Shown here in pieces: positions 103-64,000 of a stretch of 64,000 nucleotides of DNA. The stretch covers positions 6,178,460 to 6,242,459 of the forward strand of contig NC_087083.1 of NCBI RefSeq assembly GCF_026151205.1, read 5' to 3'. The number at the start of each line of letters is the position of its first letter. Position 1 is the first letter of the stretch. Both the position numbers and the translations under genes were made by a program. The notes under the pieces were generated by a model that ran no database searches, was not told where the DNA came from, and saw only the letters and a list, made by a program, of their open reading frames with translations. The stretch is from Bolinopsis microptera (lineage: Eukaryota; Ctenophora; Tentaculata; Lobata; Bolinopsidae).

Positions 103-3100
103 CTGTGGGTGGAAAAATGTGTTAAAATGTGTTAAATATGTGATAAATATGTGTTAGATATGTGATTAAGATGTGTTTAAGTCAAATACTGCTTCTCTGT
201 TTGCTCCACGGCTTAGTGTTACTGTGGGTGGAAATTCTGTTGAGGGAAAAAACATAGAAAAGTAGAACTTTATAAAATGATAAAACACTAATTTAATATC
301 AATGTATCAAGAAAAAACACACTCTAGAAGTATTATAGAGTCTATATTAAGAGAAACTTTGAGGATTATCTGTATTTATATAACTGTATAATATACATAA
401 TTTTAATAATATAACTGTATAATTTATATAATTATGCCTGCTGTAGAGAGGATATCAATAACTTGCTCTAATGTAACCAGTCGAGGTGGTTCCTTTGGTC
501 TCTCACTCGCTGCTTGTTCCTGTAACTCCAACTATTGGATTTGTGGTTTGAGAAATGGCTGGTGAACAATATCTCCTTATATGGGCATCACGTGACGTAA
601 TGTCTCCTTATATGGTAAAACAAGTTTTTTCTGACACGTGACAGCGGTTGACCAACCAGGCTTCAGTGTATTGAACAAGTCACCCTCAGAATTACTGTCA
701 CGTTTCAAAACAAATTGTATTATCCCAATTTCCTCACGTTTAGGATCGGATGAAAATATAAATCTTAAATCGTGTCTTACAAGGCTAGTTCTTTGAATTA
801 TGCTTTGGAAGCGTTCTCTTTTGAAGGTGAAAGTGGTTTCGGTTATATACATTTTTATTTGTTTGTATGCGTGTTTGTTAGTTTGTTTGTATGCGTGTTT
901 GTTAGTTCGTTAATTTGGTTGTATGTTTAAGAGTCTTACCTCGGTAAGAGTATTTTGTTGGTCCAATTCTACCGCTTCCTTTGGGGGTTTTGTGGTCTTT
1001 TTAGCGCCCCGCCCCTTTTCTTTAATATCTGGCTTTTTTGCTTCCTCTTGAATGATGGTGCTTTGTGTCTTGGCGAATAATCCTGAAATAAATCTAGGAA
1101 ATAAATTTAATCCACTGTTTTCTGACACTCACAGCATAACATTTATTTATTTTTAATAGTAATAACTTAATACTTAATGTAATTAGTTAGATAATTAATT
1201 AACTCCCAACTTGACAGTAATATATTACACTTATATATAAGTGTAATGTCCGGATAATACTAGTGAAACAACAATTACGCTCCCACTAAATCGCTCGCCC
1301 AAATTTTAGGAAATTTCTTGTGAAAAGGCCCTGAGGGCATCGTGATAGTCATCTAATTCGGTGTATACCGAATCACCCCCCATGCAGACGTAAGGTAAAA
1401 ATGCTTCCCTGAAGAGTTAAGGGCAAAAAACCGTTTTCTTCACGTGACAGGCTAATAAAACATGAATTCGATTGTTTAGGGCTCGGGTTAGGGTTAGGGT
1501 TGTGGTAAGGGTTATGGATAGCTTCAGGGTTATGGTTAGGGTTAGGGTTGGGATTAGAGTTTTTGTAAAACCGTTTTGTACGGCTGCAAAACCATAAAAA
1601 CCAAAGTCACGTGAAATTTTTGGGCGAGCGAATTAGTAAAAGCCGTAATGTCCGGATTATATTATTGAAACTCAAACAACAATTACCTTGTTTGTAGACT
1701 TCGTGCATGTCAGGGTTTGCTTTAAAGAAGGTAGCTCGCATTGCTAGAGCCAATAGATGGTACACCTGTGGTAGTTTTAATATTAATCCCACTAATAAAA
1801 AGGTACATATTGATTAATTGAGAAAATTGGCCAAGAAGTGACCCTTTGCTGATGTCAATTTCTGCTCAATTTCAGCTCGCAAATGGAATTGAAAACTCGC
1901 GGTTTTTGGGATCAAGGTTGCAGAAAAATACTGTATAGAAAAGAAAGCATTTTTAGAATTTCGATTTAGGCTTGAAATTTTTTATAATTAACGTCGGGAG
2001 TAAAGTAAAATTAGCAACAAAACGTTTTTCATCACAAATCATATAATTATAAATATAAGCGAGAAGTTTAGATTTAATTATGATCATTAAAACCGCTGCT
2101 AAAAGTAAAATCTGAGGTATTGTTATCCTACACCAACTTGTTATCGCAATGTGACATGTGACCATCAACTCAATTTGCCAAGTTTCGAATATATTGTAAG
2201 TACAGACCTATTAAACTTATTTTTACTAAAATATTCGGCACTATCGAACAATTTTATTCTATTACAAAAAATTCCCGTACTATCAAGAATATTCTCAGAG
2301 GCATAATTAGACAAGACACAACTTGTTTCACGTTTCGACTTGTATCACGTGGTGACCCCCACTGTCGCTTCACTATAGTAGAGTTTCGACGATACAGGGG
2401 GAGCCGCGCACTCGTGCGCGGCGGCCGGTCATACAACGTATGACAAGTTTCGACTTTAACCCAGGAAGGGAACTGAACTGGGACACGCGCTATATTTATA
2501 ACCTCTGGTAAAGATTAACGATAAATCGGAATTTGTTGTTATTTTGTAACTATATATAACGTCAATAAATTTTAAATAGCAGATATAAATTAAAATATCT
2601 GTAATAAGCAGTGTTGCATGTAGTGTTACGTTTAGTGTAACTGTTAGTGTTACGTTTAGTTTTACTTGTAGTGTTACGTGTTGTGTTAGGAGGAAAGATT
2701 TGTAATTGGACACCAACGAGTTTATGAAGTTGTAGCGCGATGCGTTACTGTGCCTGGCTAGATCGGCAAAATGCGCTACTGTGCCGCGCCGAGCTGCCAT
2801 GAATTTACATTACCTGAGGACTCCAGGCTATTATGTTCATTAACATAAAGATTTGGCGGAATGACAGGCTGAGCGCGGCCCAGTAAGAATTTACATTGTC
2901 AATTAAATGAAGGAGAGCGACATATTATTATTAATATAATAGTAACTTTAATATAATAGTAACTTTACGTCACTGATGTCATTTATGAAAACTACTTGCT
3001 TTGCTCCTAAATCACGGACATATTAAATACGAGGATGTGGAAACATGCTTTCTCAAAATTTTGAATTAGCTCAAAGATGGAAGTAGATAAAATACCTTCG

Positions 3101-6100
3101 AGTTCGGTTTCTTCTGAAGAGCCCTCTCAAAGATAGAAATAGCGCTGGGTTCTCCTTCCAATATCCCTAACTTTAAATATTCTTCCCCGATCATACACAG
3201 GATATCTGGAGCACAATCTGTCTCCATTACCTGGTATGGCATATTTAAAAATAGTTCATGACATATTGAAAAGTTTAAAAGTTTAAAGAGATTCTGTTTC
3301 CTCATCACACTAGAGACCGATTAGATTTAAAAATTACGTCGGAAGAGTAGATGTGTGGGAATATTAAAGAGTTTAAAAACACAGACGTAAGTAATACAAT
3401 TAATGCTTTTAGATAGTAATTTTAAAATCTATAAAGTTATAATCAAGATCTTAATTCTTGATTATTCTGAGGCATACATAGTACGACTTCAAACTCAACA
3501 AGAACAATGATAGGTCAACTGTAATATTGCTCATTGATCCATATTTAACTTTAAGGCTGTACTTGTAAATTTATAATCTACCAATTGACGCGCGCCGAGT
3601 TGAACTCGTCGACAGTCTTGAAACTCGTCGACGGTCTTGAAACAAGTATTTTACGAGTATCACCCGTTAAGGCTGTACCTGGGTGAAAATCCTGTCGGCC
3701 TCTTCATCCCCATTAGATTCAGGTAAAACTATAAGTATCAACTGGTTTTTAGCCTTGGCGTGGTATATCCGCGCCATCGTGAAATCCTCACACTTTGACA
3801 AAACCTTTTTAAACAAATCGAGAGATCGATTGAGATACCTGCAAACGTTATTTTGTTCAAGTATTTTTGATGAAATACCAGAAATTGCATTCCGTTTAAG
3901 TTTATGTGTGAGCGGAGACATATGTTAATTTGTTTTTTCTTCAACTGTTAAAAACCACCGAGTTAAACTTTTTGTTGTAAATATTCGTTTCATACTCAAA
4001 TAATTCAAATTGGCACAGCTTCAAAAATAATTACTAAGTTACCAAGTTAAAAAATTACTAAATTACTAAATTGCTAAGTAGCCAAGTTACTAAGTACTTA
4101 AATTACTAAGTTAGCAGGTTACTTCGTTACTAAGTTACCAATTTATTAAATCATCAAGTTTCCTTACTAAGCTAAAAAGTCACCAAGTTGTATACTCACT
4201 TGAAGCCACTGATGCGACCTTCATGTTTTGACATATCGTACAACACTACAGCTAAACCGTAGCAGCCTATCAAATTATCTGGGTCCAGGTTTAGACACTC
4301 TTTATATTCCCTCGCAGCAGCGCAGTTTAATCCAAACCACTGACGGGGATTGAAACAATGGTTTAGCAAACACGGTTAATTAATAAATATTAATAATTAT
4401 TTATTTAAAACTCCATAATGAAGCTGATCTCTTCGAAAAATATTCTGCGAGCAGAAATTGTAGTGATTACCTTTCACAAAGACGTTCGAAATTGTGTACA
4501 GTACAACTTTGTTATAATTTGCATCGAGGGAGGAAAGAATTTATTGAGGCGCATTAACACATATCGTTTCTATTGTAAGCAGTTCTGCAGGGTTACCTGC
4601 ACATAGGTTTGTGTTTGAAGATAAAATAATTCGCTTAAAAACCGCGTTATTATAGCGAGGTCCGTGTTATACTTATAACGAGGTCCGCGTTGTGGTACTG
4701 ACAAAAATTTAAATTATATTTATTATCTAGAAGATTACAGAAAAGTATAAAAACAAGATAATGGTAACTTTAAAAAGTAGAGAATAGTTGCCTGATAAAA
4801 GTGTCCCATTTCTGCGTGAATCTGACTGGAGCTGGATTGGTTGGTTGTTTTACATATTCTGTATATATCCGAGATTATCCTCTCAACCTTACAACGTTTA
4901 GTAAGTCAATTAATTTGGTGACATTTCATCAGCATTTATAAAGAAAATCTGAATGGGAATCTAGCAGAACCTGAATCTAGCAGTTTGATATTTGATTAAG
5001 TGATATGTGTGTCATAATGTTGTTATTGTTAATTTTAACAACTTATAGTAAATCTGCCCACAGTTTTGAAAAAAGATTCAAGCAATTTCAAAGTACAAAT
5101 TTCAAACTTTTAAAAAACACTTTTTTAACTAAATCTCACCTCTGTATAATTGTTGATTTTTAAAGCAAGATAAGCTTTGTTTGATAAGCATACCACATTC
5201 TTCTCATCCAGCTTAGTTACATTCCGAAAACATTGCGCCCCTTTTTTACCTTTGAAAGTCTATTATTGATTAAACAAAATTCGATATAACATGATTTAGT
5301 TAAACAAATTGGATACATTATGATTTGAATAAGCAGAATCTAATAAAAACATAATTAATTTTTTATAGTTTACTTTATCTGCCGGTTGCACCCTTCGTTT
5401 ACCTTCTCAAGTATGCTAACTTAATAAAATTAATTTACATCGCACAGCCATTGATCTTAAACTTAAACAAATAATTTATTAAGGAAGCACTGTGCTCCTC
5501 GATTACTATTTTAACTTAATCATTGATGCGAAAACTTAAACAGTCAGTTTTCCGGGAAATACTGTAGCCTTCGTTTACCTTTTTAACTGTATTATGGATA
5601 ACCAGCTGTCGGTTTATCAAGATTAAAGGATAATATTTAAAATTCCAAACATTTCTTTTTAAAGTGGTATGCTTTTAGCGGTTCCAACTTAATAAAGCAG
5701 CATACCTTGTTAGACTTTTAATAATTGTCTCGCGTTGTTGATTGAAATATTGCATTGTAAAATGTAAATTCATTTCAGTAATTTACAGTCGTGACGCTGA
5801 CAACATACTTTTATAAAATAAATATTGTCCGTTAAAATTATTGACCGTTAGGAATATGACCGAATGCCCACTCAACCGGCATACTTTAACGATCATGAAT
5901 TTGACTGCTATCGGAGATTTCCAAAGAAGGGGTAGCCGACTAGTGACTACCCCTTCCTTGGAAATATCCGATTAGTTAAAATTAATACAGATCTCTTCTC
6001 TTACTGCATGCTGTAATAATGTCAACTGAACTCTGCCCAATTTTTCGATAGATATCTACAGTCTAAATGGCCATGGAAACAGTATGACCGTTAAAAATAC

Positions 6101-11883: not shown

Positions 11884-14718
11884 GTAAGCAATATGTCCTT
11901 ATATAGGCAACTCGTGACGTAATATGTCCTTATATAGGCAACAAGTGACGTAATATGTCATTATATAGGCAACACGTGACGTAAATATGTCTCCTTATAT
12001 CATATAATCCTTTTGAGCTTCCTTGCTCTCTTGAATAAGTGGTTATTATAGCAAATAGAAATACATTTAGATAGCTTTTCTATAAACTTTATATGAGCTA
12101 TAATAATATTATAATGATATAATTTATTATAATAAACATAATAATATAATTAATAACTATAACGACTCGCCATTACAGGTTACGCCGTAGTGTCAACAGA
12201 AGACTGCACAGGTCTCCCGGCTGACTGGTACAGTCTCGAAACAACCGCTACCTTCCCCATCCGCAGCGGCCGTAAGATCGAGGTAACCTGTAAGAACGGA
12301 TACGTTGCTGATAACGGCAACTCAGAAGTGACTTGTCTTCAAGGAAGGGTCTTCTCCTACAGCCTCCCTCTCGTCCAGTGTGAGCTCTCCTCCTCGGAGC
12401 CTGCTGAATGGACTAGACTCTCCCCAGGAAAACTGGTGGTAGCTGATATCGACCCTGCTGATACCATGATAGAGTTCAAGTTCACTCCTTATCAGAGAGC
12501 AAGGAACCTTAAGTTCTCTCTCTACACAAGGCTCTATAAAGATGGGAGTGAGGAGATGATGGGAAATATCAACATCTTCTACCAGATGACAAAGACCACC
12601 GTCACTAAAAGCAAGATCAGGATCGGAGCACGAGAGAATGGCAGTGGGTTCAAGTACTGTAACGATCTCTACACTCTCCAGAATTTCATCCCTAAAACTG
12701 TTTCACAGGATGTGGGAAGTGCTCACGTTGTTGAAGTGGACTCTGTTCGACAGGCTACATTCCAGCAAATGAACTGTGAAGCTTATGGAGCGTGGAGGAA
12801 CCTGATTTCAAGTGGAGTTATCTCACATGTGAGCTTTGGACTGTCTGATCTGAACAGAAACCTAAAGAAATTCTTGGCAATTCACTATCGATTGGTTAAG
12901 ATTACAGCCCCCACTACCTTCCCTCCAACATCCAGAGATGGGGTTACTTTCGCCTTTTCTGAAAGTCCAACTCAAGCTTATGAGCTGGGAGAGCTGAATA
13001 TTGATCCCAATGCAGGAAACGATGAATCACCTTCAAGCGATGAATCATCAGGTGAGCATTCTAGCGGTGGATCATCTTCAAGCGGTGGATCATCAGGTGG
13101 ACATTCCAGCGGTGGATCATCTTCAAGCAGTGGGTCATCAGGAGTTGGAGGCGGATCATCTGGATCATCTTCAAGCGGTGGATCATCAAGCGGACATTCT
13201 AGTGGTGGATCATCTTCGAACGGTGGATCATCAGGTGGACATTCCAGCGGTGGATCATCTTCAAGCGGTGGATCATCAGGTGGGCATTCCAGCGGTGGAT
13301 CATCTTCAAGCAGTGGGTCATCAGGAGTTGGAGGCGGATCATCTGGATCATCTTTAGGCGGTGGATCATCAAGTGGACATTCCAGCGGTGGATCATCTTC
13401 AAGCGGTGGATCATCAGGTGGGCATTCCAGCGGTGGATCATCTTCAAGCAGTGGGTCATCAGGAGTTGGAGGCGGATCATCTGGATCATCTTCAAGTAGT
13501 GGATCATCAGGCGTTGGAGGCGGATCATCTGGATCATCTGGATCATCTGGATCATCTGGATCATCTGGATCATCTGGATCATCTGGATCATCTGGATCAT
13601 CTGGATCATCTGGATCATCTGGATCATCTGGATCATCTGGATCATCTGGATCATCTGGATCATCTGGATCATCTGGATCATCTGGATCATCTGGATCATC
13701 TGGATCATCTGGATCATCTGGATCATCTGGATCATCTTCAAGCAGTGGATCATCTTCAAGCAGTGGATCATCTTCAAGAGGTGGAAGCAATTCTAGTGGC
13801 CGAAATATACCATCAAATGATTCGGAAAATAATTCCCAATACGACGCACCTGCAGCTGTATCTACCAAGGCGGTTTTCTCAGCTGGTGAATCTGCACACC
13901 CTATTTGCAGCATATATGCCAGTGGAGTCATAGATGACTTCGATAGTGGTGTTAATCGATACGATTTGAAATGCACTCATGTTCTGGCAGCAGACTACTT
14001 TGGATTGGATGGTAAAATGCCTTGGTTCATCTATGGCTCATTTGATGAGTTCGATGGAGTAAGATCCCTTGCTGCCATGGCATTCTTTTTGGGTAGAAGT
14101 ACACCTTTCGAGATCCAGAGGGGATGGATGATCAATGACGACGGAAGCAAGATGAAGATCAAGGAAGAGAAGGAAGTAACTATGGGAGAAACAGGCTGTA
14201 CCATTCTCTTTGCCCAGAACGTTCTCAAGATAACTTGCGCTCCATTTACCGTATACTACGACGGTATGATGTCCGCTCACATCGAGTACACCTCCAAGAC
14301 CACCCAGGTTGGAACAGCCAAGGGTATGTTCAACATTGGACTTTGTTTCGATAACCAATCAGGACGACGACCCAACTGGCAGGTGAACACCATAGCAACC
14401 TGCTCGGTGACACCTGGAGCTCAGAAATTCTGCAACGGTGCCTCTCCTACCTTCTGTAACAACCTTCCTGATAGGGGTGACGCGTACCGACAAGCCTGTA
14501 ACCAGATGTTCTGTGATAAGAAGCAGAGCTCTGGATCAAACGATCTGAGTGATAAGCAAAAGTGTGCTCTTTCCGTGTCTGCTGCAGCTAAGCGTAACCT
14601 CCAGGGCTTCTCAAGCGGTTATCCTTCGTCAGGGTGCCCCAGTGATAACTGTACCTGGAAACATAGTGTCATCGAATCTGGTTGTTTCCAAGACCCATTC
14701 TTCGTCGGATGCAACTAA
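11847..14718 (+). CDS. Secreted Sushi-like / Ser-Gly-rich / vWD-like protein (858 aa)
   Basis: Two exons (11847-11883 and 12179-14718) join G|GT in frame. Exon 1 encodes a signal peptide (MKIVLLSLLALLG, then YAVVS). The mature part begins with a Sushi/CCP-like module (about 22-66: four Cys, CKNGYV, VTCLQG). An unrecognised region of about 220 residues follows, then a Ser/Gly linker (about 293-553) made of SSG and HSSGGSSSSGG repeats. A von Willebrand D-like segment (about 583-745) has CSIYASGVIDDFDSG, RYDLKCTHVLAAD, VYYDG and GLCFDNQSG. A Cys-rich tail resembles C8/TIL-type spacing. The protein is probably an extracellular matrix, mucus or adhesive protein; that role is inference. The usual ATG start is confirmed by the signal peptide. 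Confidence 0.85.
11887..12005. repeat. Intronic tandem repeat with CCTTATATAGG and GTGACGTAA
   Basis: Three to four units of about 33 bp: ATATGTCCTTATATAGGCAA then CACGTGACGTAAT-type sequence. The CCTTATATAGG core is close to a CArG box (one extra A/T), and GTGACGTAA resembles a CRE/bZIP half site. It lies just downstream of exon 1. Confidence 0.7.
12179..14718 (+). CDS. Secreted protein, exon 2 (main coding exon)
   Basis: Opens after CATTACAG and runs to TAA at 14716-14718. G+C and codon use are clearly higher than in the surrounding DNA. Both cysteine-rich ends are well ordered, so this is not a chance frame. The other frames through the repeat (poly Asp-Pro, His-Leu or Met-Ile) are shadows of the array. 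Confidence 0.9.
13055..13795 (+). repeat. Coding minisatellite (Ser/Gly linker)
   Basis: Two nested layers. The first part has longer units reading HSSGGSSSSGGSSGG and SSGSSGVGGG. The second part, about 13528-13735, is a near-perfect array of the 9-mer GGATCATCT (more than 20 copies) coding Gly-Ser-Ser. All units are multiples of three, so copy-number change keeps the frame. Confidence 0.92.
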
Positions 14719-19204: not shown

Positions 19205-57049
<37,845 letters not shown>

Positions 57050-60538: not shown

Positions 60539-62161
60539 TTCATCAAAACAAAGAAGGGCAAAGAATGGCTTCTCAAATGTTGCAGATGCTCTCAACATTG
60601 GCACGCCTCCTGCAGCAACCTGAAGGGATCAAACCAGATTGGTCAGATTGATCTTGATGCCATCCTTCAGTACTGGGAATGTCCATGGTGCTTCACGTCA
60701 TTTCATCCCAAACCAAACAGCAGCACCGCGTCTAAATTTGATAAAGCTCTCCAGTCTAGTGTTGACTACAGTAAAAACATCCAAGCTGTATCTGATGCCA
60801 TCTCGAGTGCTGTATCTAACAGCATACCCACTGTGGAGATATCTTCATTGGAGGCCAGACTTTCACAACTGAGTGAAGAGATCCACTCCTTCCAAAAATC
60901 AAGGAATCATCTCGCCTCTACCCATGATGCAGCAGTGAAACGAGAGAGTAAGCCGTCAGTAGCTCTCCCTAAATGTGTACAGCCACCGATAAAGGACTAC
61001 CAAGTAGACATCTTGGACAAAGATCTGCTTGATGAGGTATCCAGATTTCTCACTGAGAGCAAAGATTCTGGTAAGTTTAGCCAGATGAATGGAAGGGCAG
61101 TCCTCAAATACGGCGAAAGCTACAACTATTCTGGAGACTCAAATGCCCCGTCATCAGCAGCCATTCCATCAGTTTTAACAGCTGCCATTGATAGAGTCAC
61201 GTCTCAGTGCAAACTCACGCACAGGCCTAACTCTGTGCTCATAAACTACTTCCCTCCAAGCAGCGGTGCAGAGGAAAGTATGTTGCCCTTTCACTGTGAT
61301 GACGAGCCAGAGATCCTCGCTGACTCTGACATAGCCACAATTTCCATAGGAGAGGTCAGAAAAATAAGTTTCATGCCCATCCACGAAGGACAAACACCCA
61401 CAAAAAACACTGAAATGTCCCTGGAATCAAACTCAGTTTACATCATGACACGTTCCTCACAGGCATGGTTCAAACATGGTATTAAAGCTACCCAACAGAC
61501 CAAGGTAACCCCGTCCATAGGACGTTACTCAATTACCCTTAGAACAGTTGACAAAAAATTTCGAAGAAGCACCATCATACTTGGAGATTCCAACACCAAA
61601 ACTATCAAGTTTGGGAGCGGTGTTGGTACTATGGGTCAGTCTTTCCCTGGCGAAAGAGTTAAGGCGGGTAAAGTTGGTTTGATTGACCCATGTCACTGTA
61701 TCGGATACAGCAATGCTGTTATTGTGTGTGGTACAAATGACCTTCGAGTAGACAACCTTAGAGGAGAGAATGCAATCTATCAGCTGGTTGACATTCTCCG
61801 CATGAAGATTGAACAGATAAAAAAGCTCTCCCCTAAAATCAAACTCTTTGTCACCGCAGTCCTCCCAACCAGACTGCCCCAAATGAACAAGAACATCATG
61901 ATCTTCAACCGACTAGTCGATGAATTGTTGAGTGCCAACTTTAACCAGACTGTATGGCACATTGGAGTTGGCCACTTTCTGGACAGTAGTGGACTCCTTG
62001 CCACTAATCTGACCAGAAGTGGTGATGATATACATTTAGGTATTTATGGTATTGCAAAATTTGTGAGATGTGTGAAGCACTGGGTGTATGTGAGAGCGAG
62101 GCAAGAGTGGACACGACGTGGAAAACACAACCAGTCAGTGGGGTCTAACAACCCCACTTAG
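60539..62161 (+). CDS. LINE ORF1: partial PHD, AlkB-like dioxygenase, SGNH hydrolase
   Basis: Open frame of 540 codons with no early ATG (first Met codon at 61085), so the true start is missing. The first 60 codons hold half a PHD finger (KCCRCSQHWHASC, then WECPWC) without its first Cys pair. Counting from 60833, a 2-oxoglutarate/Fe(II) fold of the AlkB type spans about 90-240: NSVLINYFPPSSG, metal ligands His154 and Asp156 in PFHCDDEPE, His215 in FKHGI, and 2OG-binding RYSITLRT (Arg231, Arg237). An SGNH/GDSL hydrolase follows: GDSN 251-254, VCGTNDLR (Gly300, Asn302), and DDIHLG (Asp398, His401). CR1-like ORF1 esterases are known; AlkB beside one is unusual. Likely binds and processes element RNA; substrate unknown. 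Confidence 0.87.
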   Translation, partial: FIKTKKGKEWLLKCCRCSQHWHASCSNLKGSNQIGQIDLDAILQYWECPWCFTSFHPKPNSSTASKFDKALQSSVDYSKNIQAVSDAISSAVSNSIPTVEISSLEARLSQLSEEIHSFQKSRNHLASTHDAAVKRESKPSVALPKCVQPPIKDYQVDILDKDLLDEVSRFLTESKDSGKFSQMNGRAVLKYGESYNYSGDSNAPSSAAIPSVLTAAIDRVTSQCKLTHRPNSVLINYFPPSSGAEESMLPFHCDDEPEILADSDIATISIGEVRKISFMPIHEGQTPTKNTEMSLESNSVYIMTRSSQAWFKHGIKATQQTKVTPSIGRYSITLRTVDKKFRRSTIILGDSNTKTIKFGSGVGTMGQSFPGERVKAGKVGLIDPCHCIGYSNAVIVCGTNDLRVDNLRGENAIYQLVDILRMKIEQIKKLSPKIKLFVTAVLPTRLPQMNKNIMIFNRLVDELLSANFNQTVWHIGVGHFLDSSGLLATNLTRSGDDIHLGIYGIAKFVRCVKHWVYVRARQEWTRRGKHNQSVGSNNPT

Positions 62162-62166
62162 TAAAA

Positions 62167-64000
62167 ATGAATATAAAACTGATTAAAGATGTGTGTGGCC
62201 CATGCAGCAGATCTATTAACATTGGACAACCTTTACTGGAGTGTGAAAACTGCAATAATGCAATCCATACCAAATGCTTCAAATCTGCCAAATATTCTTG
62301 CAAAAATGGTCTGTGGATGTGTTACGAGTGTGCTAGTTCTGCAGAGGAACGATACTATCCATTTCCATCTAATGAAGAATCTTATGACTCTGACAGATTC
62401 TATGAAAATAGGAACCAGGAGGATACCCTGATTGCATCGTATTCCCTTGTACTTGAACGCTGTCGTCGCTACTCTAAAATTGAATTTCTAAATGCAATTA
62501 AGCAGCTTAATTCCTTAAAAAAACCCATGTTATCATCTCTATTCTACAATGTGGATGGAAATGCATCCAACTTTGATAGCTTCTTGATTGAGCTCAGAAG
62601 TATAGGACACTCGTTTGATATGATAGGCCTTGCTGAAACCAATACTGATCCTGCGCAGCAGGGTCTGTATCAAATTCCAGCATACACAGGATTCTATGGG
62701 GAAACATTGGCGGGCAAGAAGAAAGGCACTGGTGTTGCACTCTATATATCTGACAATCTAAACACTGTGGTCTTAGAAAAAGTATCACATTGTACTCCAA
62801 ATATTGAAAGCCTCTTTGTTGAAACCACAGATAGCGCAGGCTGCAAAATTGTTCATGGAGTCATGTACCGACCCCCAAATGGCTGCTTTGACAGCTTTTG
62901 TGAAACGCTGGAGTTAATTGCAAGACAGCTAAATGGAAAAACTGTCAATTTGTTGGGCGACTTTAACTCAAACATACTTAATATTTCTACCAGTTCCCAG
63001 CTCTTTGAGGATACATTGTACAGAAATGGCTTCTATCCGACTATATCCATTGCAACACATTTTCGTCAAAACTGTAAAAGTTCATGTATTGATAACATTT
63101 TAACAAATAAAATAGAGAATGTAGTCTTATCAGGTGTTATCGAGGAGCGGCTTGGTGAGCATGCCCCTATATTTACCTTTACCTCAGCAGAGACCCCTCG
63201 CAATACAGAGCCCCAGAAACATGTCCGATATTATGATTACTCAAGCTCCAAATTAAAAAGTTTTGTAACTGAACTTGAGGTGAAGGTAAACCAGCTGACT
63301 CCTTCGACACAATTTGATGAGTTTACGGCATGTTTTGACCAGACACTTGATAAACACTGTAAACTGGAAGTACCAAAAGTGACAAAAAGAACTCCGAAAC
63401 TCAACCCATGGATTACAAACGGTATCATCCAGTCGGTAGAAAGAAAACATGAACTACGTAAGGAGTGGTCTGACACTGTTACCAATAAGAACCCTGGTGG
63501 TAATCTCTTGTTCTACCAAGTATTTAGCAATTATCGTAGGATGCTTAAAGCCATCATTAAAGCTGCCAAACGTTCGCATTACTGCAACGAAATCCTCAAC
63601 AACTGTGAAAACAGCAAGAAAACTTGGCAAATTATCAATGAACTTAGAGGCAAGAAGAAGAGACAAACCAAACCCCCGTTTATCATTGATAATCAAAGAA
63701 TAGTTGATAGAAGGACAATCGCTAATGGATTCAATGCTTGGTTTGTCTCTATTGCACCCAAGCTGAATGAGACGCTTAATGACCTATCTCATGGCATGCC
63801 TATATTACCCATGAAAACTTTTTATGACTTCCTGAATAAAAGAAATGAAAAAACTATTATGCTAGAAGATTGCTCCCCGACCGAAATATTGAAAATTATA
63901 AATCAGTTTGAAAACGGCAAAGCTAGTGACATTCCAATAAGTGTAATAAAAAAGTCATCTCATATAATTGCACCTGTCTTATCAAATTACTTCAATATCC
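62167..64000 (+). CDS. LINE ORF2: PHD finger, AP endonuclease, reverse transcriptase (cut by edge)
   Basis: ATG five bases after the ORF1 stop, then 611 codons open to the window end. Residues 10-55 form a complete C4HC3 PHD finger (Cys10, 13, 26, 29, His34, Cys37, 52, 55, with Trp50). The endonuclease/exonuclease/phosphatase domain (about 122-340) has SLFYNVDG, Glu157 in AETNT, GVALYIS, YRPPNG, LLGDFNS (Asp265, Asn267), CIDNILTN and GEHAPIF. The last is the position of the usual SDH, with Asp replaced by Glu331 and His332 kept. The reverse transcriptase begins near ENGKASDIPISVIKKSS (583 on); its catalytic YxDD lies outside. ORF2 nicks target DNA and primes reverse transcription. Confidence 0.9.
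   Translation, partial: MNIKLIKDVCGPCSRSINIGQPLLECENCNNAIHTKCFKSAKYSCKNGLWMCYECASSAEERYYPFPSNEESYDSDRFYENRNQEDTLIASYSLVLERCRRYSKIEFLNAIKQLNSLKKPMLSSLFYNVDGNASNFDSFLIELRSIGHSFDMIGLAETNTDPAQQGLYQIPAYTGFYGETLAGKKKGTGVALYISDNLNTVVLEKVSHCTPNIESLFVETTDSAGCKIVHGVMYRPPNGCFDSFCETLELIARQLNGKTVNLLGDFNSNILNISTSSQLFEDTLYRNGFYPTISIATHFRQNCKSSCIDNILTNKIENVVLSGVIEERLGEHAPIFTFTSAETPRNTEPQKHVRYYDYSSSKLKSFVTELEVKVNQLTPSTQFDEFTACFDQTLDKHCKLEVPKVTKRTPKLNPWITNGIIQSVERKHELRKEWSDTVTNKNPGGNLLFYQVFSNYRRMLKAIIKAAKRSHYCNEILNNCENSKKTWQIINELRGKKKRQTKPPFIIDNQRIVDRRTIANGFNAWFVSIAPKLNETLNDLSHGMPILPMKTFYDFLNKRNEKTIMLEDCSPTEILKIINQFENGKASDIPISVIKKSSHIIAPVLSNYFNI

Follow-up and report, generated by a model that had tools for sequence, protein, structure and literature searches.

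The stretch of the Bolinopsis microptera genome analysed here (contig NC_087083.1, positions 6,178,460 to 6,242,459 of the forward strand; these 64,000 nucleotides are called the window) carries at positions 60539 to 62161 the first open reading frame (ORF1) of a long interspersed nuclear element (LINE), in which an AlkB-type 2-oxoglutarate (2OG)/Fe(II) dioxygenase domain is fused ahead of an SGNH hydrolase domain. As judged from profiles and structure models, ORF1 of this family is a fusion of PHD finger, probable coiled coil, AlkB and SGNH, while ORF2 comprises a zinc finger, an APE endonuclease and a reverse transcriptase (RT). The AlkB domain looks like an intact enzyme, with its domain matches, its predicted fold, its invariant active sites and purifying selection, and it is present in many copies and in other elements of the genome. 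We give about even chances to the view that AlkB of the ORF1 protein (ORF1p) clears base methylation that would block the RT. The features of the locus are:

60555..64000, +, LINE copy (fragment), continuing beyond the window to about 64752 (G000:C12:6243211), by blastn against the longer sister copy L002/L064
60539..62161, +, ORF1 frame of 540 amino acids, 5'-truncated, open throughout
60551..60694, +, C-terminal part of a PHD finger (PF16866, PHD_4, E 2.6e-4, residues 5-52, below the Pfam cut-off)
60725..60907, +, long helices, probable coiled coil (AlphaFold2 helices 63-95 and 101-123, predicted)
60986..61561, +, AlkB-type 2OG/Fe(II) dioxygenase domain, residues 150-341
61292..61300, +, HxD iron motif (H252, D254), followed by D255 and E256
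61475..61477, +, distal iron ligand H313
61523..61543, +, 2OG-binding strand with R329, S331 and R335
61562..62098, +, SGNH/GDSL hydrolase domain, residues 342-520
61583..61594, +, SGNH block I, GDSN (S351)
61730..61741, +, SGNH block III, GTND (G398, N400)
62024..62035, +, SGNH block V, DxxH (D496, H499)
62167..64000, +, ORF2 (zinc finger, then APE-like endonuclease), its ATG five bases past the ORF1 stop
62194..62331, +, PHD/C1-like zinc finger at the start of ORF2 (PF00130 E 1.4e-4, PF00628 E 8.5e-4, both below cut-off)
62542..63138, +, APE-like endonuclease in ORF2 (PF03372 E 3.7e-6, 27.3 bits, exceeding the cut-off of 24.5)

Both enzyme domains had been proposed from motifs alone in an earlier, sequence-only reading, and all of its motif positions are correct in the 540 amino acid frame. 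Its AlkB assignment, which hinged on a profile match, stands: residues 192-335 match 2OG-FeII_Oxy_2 (PF13532) with E 2.5e-17 and 64.2 bits against a cut-off of 31.2. The frame also matched the 'alkylated DNA repair' family of PHROGs (E 1.2e-7) and, in a single-sequence search of the PDB, ALKBH8 (E 0.0011) and ALKBH3 (E 0.014), and the predicted structure of the domain has the fold of AlkB enzymes. For SGNH the proposal held by fold, by blocks I, III and V (GDSx, GxND, DxxH) and by the family profile, but not by the single-sequence test, in which Lipase_GDSL stayed below the curated Pfam cut-off (E 0.026; 15.1 bits versus 23.6). Fold and profile confirm the domain despite these weak single-sequence scores. 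The half PHD finger that had been noticed corresponds to the PF16866 match; its first cysteines are cut off in the window copy and present in L002.

Conservation of the active sites was followed in an alignment of the window frame with 54 of 68 homologues (14 were left out, mostly short or redundant, among them one protein lacking AlkB, P0068). H252, D254, H313, R329, S331, R335, GDSN with S351, G398 and N400 are invariant in all 55 sequences, and E256 (54/55), D496 (52/55) and H499 (54/55) nearly so; position 255 is D in 43, N in 10 and H in 2. The H, D, H, R and R residues are kept in 19 of 19 aligned AlkB domains. HxDDE or HxDNE is found in 137 of 143 element rows (DE 73, NE 64; the window has HCDDE), and in 135 of 149 rows when bacterial-looking ones are included. 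The ratio of nonsynonymous to synonymous substitution rates (dN/dS, NG86) in AlkB lies between 0.05 and 0.17 in seven measurable pairs (window-L003 0.146, window-L006 0.091, L006-L003 0.099, L037-L050 0.125, L043-L044 0.050, L041-L059 0.157, L041-L046 0.172), and dN is 0 between the window and L002. This comparison across copies, which the sequence-only reading had suggested, thus reveals purifying selection on AlkB. A dead or decaying domain was rejected on the invariant catalytic residues together with the low dN/dS. For SGNH, ratios of 0.106, 0.149 and 0.113 were obtained; two further values (0.048 and 0.169) are unreliable, with dS above 3.

The locus comprises ORF1 and ORF2 of a LINE, since the frame following ORF1 holds a finger and an APE-like endonuclease and the RT lies just beyond: in L042, the window locus extended downstream, the RT match begins at about 64060, just outside the window (PF00078 E 3.1e-35). 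The endonuclease and the RT thus stand directly downstream of ORF1, and the LINE ORF1 with AlkB and SGNH that had been proposed is borne out, with the addition that this copy is a fragment missing sequence at either end. Assignment to the CR1/L2 group (Jockey superfamily) is suggested by the PHD/esterase ORF1 and the ORF2 layout. The window copy is 99.8% identical to L002 over 3104 bases (blastn; 6 mismatches, 0 gaps). Homology to L002/L064 begins at 60555, inside the PHD finger, and ends at about 64752, inside ORF2 (L042:1712 in the comparison with L064). Compared with L002/L064, the window copy lacks both ends, and it represents a recent insertion from a family with many intact-looking members; L002 itself has an ORF1 frame of 722 and an ORF2 frame of 1141 amino acids. 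From L042 position 1713 (window about 64753) onwards the sequence is unrelated, and near L042:2850-3050 inspection by eye shows an inverted repeat, which may mark another element within or beside ORF2.

The genome (264.65 Mb, 232 contigs) contains many related copies. The search with ORF1 gave 1060 first-look candidates, of which 80 were scored, all of them matching; the following figures refer to these 80. The whole AlkB domain is covered in 48 and at least 100 of its 192 residues in 63, while fewer than 20 residues are covered in six, all of them partial matches. An ORF2 match (71 of 1841 candidates scored) follows within 1.5 kb downstream on the same strand in 49, at a distance of at most 25 bases in 43 of these. 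Longer family members have ORF1 frames of 697-724 amino acids, and 13 genome rows of one subfamily (62-63% identity to the window) have a 697 amino acid frame with no internal stop. Among proteins (E<=1e-3; the 7995 candidates sharing most words scored), 68 homologues were found, 67 of which carry PF13532. Other copies thus carry AlkB, contrary to what a one-off insertion, the possibility raised in the sequence-only reading, would leave.

Homologues from the protein searches include four Mnemiopsis proteins (P0030, P0127, P0128, P0131). Two AlkB-bearing relatives (P0094, P0118) are filed under a Planctomycetes bacterium metagenome-assembled genome on contigs below 2 kb and probably represent eukaryote contamination. 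No relative was found in the viral-contig collection searched, and a protein search aimed at free-standing AlkBs returned 15 proteins, some of which are element fragments. P0068, the exception among the 68 homologues, is ORF1-like with SGNH motifs and no AlkB match, and its SGNH is 35% identical to that of the window; it may be an AlkB-less relative. A search of the genome with P0068 (79 of 533 candidates scored, many of them copies of the window's own type, called type A below) led to three fetched loci: L071 has a full AlkB, L070 the AlkB tail only, and L072 no AlkB by model in its two longest frames, which are broken up.

AlkB is not confined to the window family. A genome search with PF13532 (150 of 587 candidates scored) gave at least 151 matches, all above the cut-off among the matches listed, and 32 of the listed places (L031-L041, L043-L063) were fetched to cover differing frame lengths. 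Element-borne AlkBs account for 28 of them. The other four are host-like: ALKBH2 (L031, E 4e-58), two ALKBH3-like frames (L033, E 1.1e-27; L032, E 3.2e-40) and an ALKBH8-like frame with AlkB and methyltransferase (L054). In L033 (near C5:22266892), the host-like ALKBH3 frame is followed after about 700 bases by an SGNH-like frame (2662-3438, +; Lipase_GDSL_2 E 3.3e-4, below cut-off), which may be a gene, an element or a chance neighbour. By phmmer, 25 of the 28 element-borne places have an SGNH-type domain, be it of their own type or of a different one, seven of these being the queries; in the remaining three, the type-C stretches L044, L045 and L063, the fetched part ends before the SGNH position. 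The architectures are:

Type A (window family, L048, L051, L057): PHD-AlkB-SGNH
L071: AlkB-SGNH without PHD match (PF13532 E 4.7e-17, Lipase_GDSL_2 0.0027)
Type B (L037, L050, L058): AlkB-SGNH, ORF2 without PHD match (RT E 3.3e-39 in L065)
Type C (L043): AlkB first, a helical stretch, then a C-terminal domain with SGNH-like motifs (by eye only)
Type D (L041): SGNH, Pro/Ala linker, AlkB, DUF6570 and Helitron_like_N in one frame
Type E (L052, L053, L055, L056): AlkB and a different SGNH (RT E 4.4e-35 in L069)

The RT cores of types A, B and E share 36-43% identity from one type to another, and that of type C shares 29-33% with the rest. Type E has a PHD match (E 7.3e-5) plus endonuclease in L066, and ORF2 of type C (L043) matches PF14529 and PF00078 (E 1.8e-28). 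The SGNH domains of different types are mostly near noise against each other. For type E, Lipase_GDSL stays below the cut-off (0.039 in L055, 0.032 in L052, 0.001 in L053), and its profile matches that of type A with 91% probability (E 1.2e-6). For type C (L043) there is no Pfam GDSL match, comparison with the type A profile gives 32 columns at 38% probability, and the AlphaFold2 model of the C-terminal domain from five rows has a mean pLDDT of 35.5. L041 is a Helitron, with PF14214 (E 3.4e-22) and PF13532 (E 4.9e-21) in the same 2339 amino acid open stretch. AlkB and Helitron_like_N share one unbroken frame at six places (2225, 2459, 3226, 3321, 3366 and 3388 amino acids). Besides these six, the 41 Helitron_like_N matches include two neighbouring AlkB pairs in broken frames, and the other rows have no same-frame AlkB among the AlkB matches listed. 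Upstream of the Helitron polyprotein of L041 (G000:C10:16871500-16881400), a frame at 2235-2735 (+) without Pfam match has DVETNPGP near its end, which in our view resembles a 2A self-cleaving peptide.

A profile of 14 element AlkB domains was compared with solved structures. It matched ALKBH3 (4e-31) and ALKBH2 (7e-28) best, followed by ALKBH8 (8.5e-15) and E. coli AlkB (9e-12), and more weakly an N6-methyladenine DNA demethylase (9e-4), ALKBH1 (0.004) and ALKBH5 (0.05); type C alone gave E 3.9e-14 for ALKBH3. The top Foldseek rows for the AlkB model are ABH2 bound to double-stranded DNA, and ALKBH3, which shares the fold and the HxDDE...H...RxxxxxR signature with ALKBH2 and the element, was solved with single-stranded DNA, a substrate of the enzyme. 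Among solved relatives, profile and fold therefore place the element AlkB closest to ALKBH2/3, the type acting on N1-methyladenine (m1A) and N3-methylcytosine (m3C). R335 appears to be spaced from its partner arginine as R210 is in E. coli AlkB, the pair there presumably being R204-R210. In that enzyme, D135 is close to N6 of m1A and R210 to its N1, and reverse transcription can be halted by modified bases until these are taken off by AlkB (PMC7968990).

Two trees were made, a quick one and a careful one in which host ALKBH8 served as outgroup; they group type C (L043, P0132) with bacterial-looking AlkBs and host ALKBH2/3 (99/94) and separate it from types A, B and E. Forcing all element rows into a single clade gave a tree that was not rejected (p-AU 0.056). 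When ALKBH8 was left out, a single branch separated all 32 element rows from the other sequences (87/93, not starred), and one with 99/93 did so for the 30 rows that are not type C. The trees fit either one capture of AlkB by the elements or two.

A plausible course of events can be outlined for the LINE. ORF1p would multimerise via its coiled coil on the element RNA, and AlkB would oxidatively strip m1A, m3C and similar modifications from the single-stranded RNA (or the nascent cDNA), and target-primed reverse transcription could then proceed on the demethylated template. SGNH may bind or act on lipids or another ester, or target membranes, a role proposed for the ORF1p of the fish L2 element ZfL2-1 (PMC3905857). 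The Helitron with AlkB and SGNH could be explained by the same need, since its single-stranded intermediate must stay readable; Helitrons pass through single-stranded DNA. More tentatively, and at somewhat under even chances, we suggest that in this animal lineage a single-strand repair enzyme, an ALKBH2/3-like AlkB, is a standard accessory of LINEs with clearly differing RTs and of a Helitron, elements that all pass through a single-stranded intermediate; it would be accompanied by an SGNH-type domain, have been gained or exchanged repeatedly, and remove methylation that stops copying.

Several points weigh against a role of AlkB in clearing the template. The structural alignment shows 20-24% identity with ALKBH2/3, which does not suffice to settle the substrate. 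Type-A AlkB falls outside the ALKBH2/3 cluster in the trees, the base of which is weakly supported. With N after HxD in 64 of 143 element rows, base preference may differ, and no dN/dS could be obtained for nine AlkB pairs, in which dS was saturated. Since P0068 appears to have SGNH without AlkB, the domain may not be indispensable in all relatives.

AlkB might instead be an epigenetic eraser, taking N6-methyladenine off element RNA (m6A) or DNA (6mA) and thereby escaping or exploiting host control. We consider this unlikely, though it has a precedent in the AlkB of an orchid Ty3/Gypsy element, an m6A demethylase in vitro for which such a role has been proposed (PMC9289625), and the PHD-type fingers in ORF1 and ORF2 suggest chromatin reading (PMC4120745). 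The orchid domain is of the ALKBH5 type, unlike the element AlkB, for which ALKBH5 (E 0.05 versus 4e-31 for ALKBH3) as well as ALKBH1 and the DNA N6-methyladenine demethylase (E 9e-4 to 0.01) lie far below ALKBH3 and ALKBH2. An m6A-type enzyme was for this reason rejected as first choice, and the ALKBH2/3-type fold and profile favour protection of the element's nucleic acid over erasure of such marks. Slightly less probable still is action at the insertion site, where an ALKBH2-like enzyme would repair base alkylation in the cDNA or in the target DNA after nicking. The first Foldseek rows and the endonuclease encoded by the element fit this idea; ALKBH3 with its single-stranded DNA is equally close, however, and ORF1 proteins are classically bound to RNA. 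Some ALKBH proteins have substrates other than nucleic acids, and a protein hydroxylase or a binding module would be in line with this, but the catalytic residues do not vary, and the nearest solved relatives, ALKBH2/3, act on nucleic acids, which makes such a function improbable. Frames like ALKBH2, ALKBH3 and ALKBH8 of the host do exist in the genome, but the idea that a gene of this kind joined a LINE by chance or in a single insertion is ruled out for practical purposes by the other copies with intact frames, by the 150 scored candidates matching above cut-off, by purifying selection and by homologues elsewhere, including Mnemiopsis.

The type-A SGNH profile matches PDB 4c1b, an 'ORF1-encoded protein' (E 1e-4) which we take to be that of zebrafish ZfL2-1. 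The esterase (type IV) ORF1s of CR1/L2 like ZfL2-1 share SGNH and a coiled coil upstream of an APE-RT ORF2, and CR1/L2 elements with PHD-bearing ORF1s have, as here, one PHD-like finger towards the N terminus of ORF1 and another where ORF2 begins. Such esterase and PHD ORF1s are already known (PMC4120745, PMC3905857, PMC5408684), whereas AlkB or a dioxygenase is mentioned in the accessible text of none of the three, nor is 2OG in that of the ORF1 survey PMC4120745; the fusion of AlkB ahead of SGNH sets the present ORF1 apart. The orchid (Phalaenopsis) element is likewise a retrotransposon with an acquired AlkB-superfamily enzyme, but it is a plant long terminal repeat (LTR) element with an ALKBH5-type AlkB as additional ORF, not a LINE ORF1 fusion with SGNH near ALKBH2/3 (PMC9289625). 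Plant RNA viruses (Alpha-/Betaflexiviridae, Closteroviridae) also carry their own AlkB on a mobile RNA genome. The viral models share the AlkB fold of the element, and viral AlkBs demethylate RNA in vitro (PMC9289625); here, in contrast, the carrier is a LINE, the domain is fused to SGNH and its nearest solved relatives are ALKBH2/3, which are not parts of a transposon protein. The sequence-only reading did not know AlkB as a LINE architecture, and we found no earlier report of AlkB in a LINE, Helitron or ctenophore element in the open-access PMC literature (subscription journals and Repbase reports were outside this scope); the available parts of PMC11294593, PMC8141815, PMC6431247 and PMC4982230 contain no LINE- or Helitron-encoded AlkB. 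AlkB in a retrotransposon is itself known, and what seems to be new is its presence in a LINE ORF1 and its unexpectedly broad spread over the elements of one genome.

Elsewhere in the window, an open frame at 26745-27386 (+) encodes a FLYWCH zinc finger (PF04500 E 2e-12), which frequently accompanies transposases. An 851 amino acid open frame at 12163-14718 (+) is marked by an extended stretch of Gly/Ser repeats, and its match to Sushi is weak (E 0.0023, below cut-off); several Ser/Pro/Leu-rich frames of 208-304 amino acids at 52482-54841 (-) look like translated tandem repeats and not genes.

LINE ORF1 proteins are diverse and poorly understood, and a demethylase-bearing LINE was not found in the literature searched. 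LINEs now stand beside RNA viruses and orchid LTR elements as acquirers of AlkB. SGNH occurs before or after AlkB, also in the Helitron, which poses the question why both enzymes travel together. A testable question is also raised, namely whether m1A and m3C limit reverse transcription of transposons in cells and whether elements evolve means to remove them. If the proposed role of AlkB is true, methylation or alkylation of element RNA or single-stranded DNA would form a genuine obstacle, possibly raised by the host in defence, to which the elements have responded.
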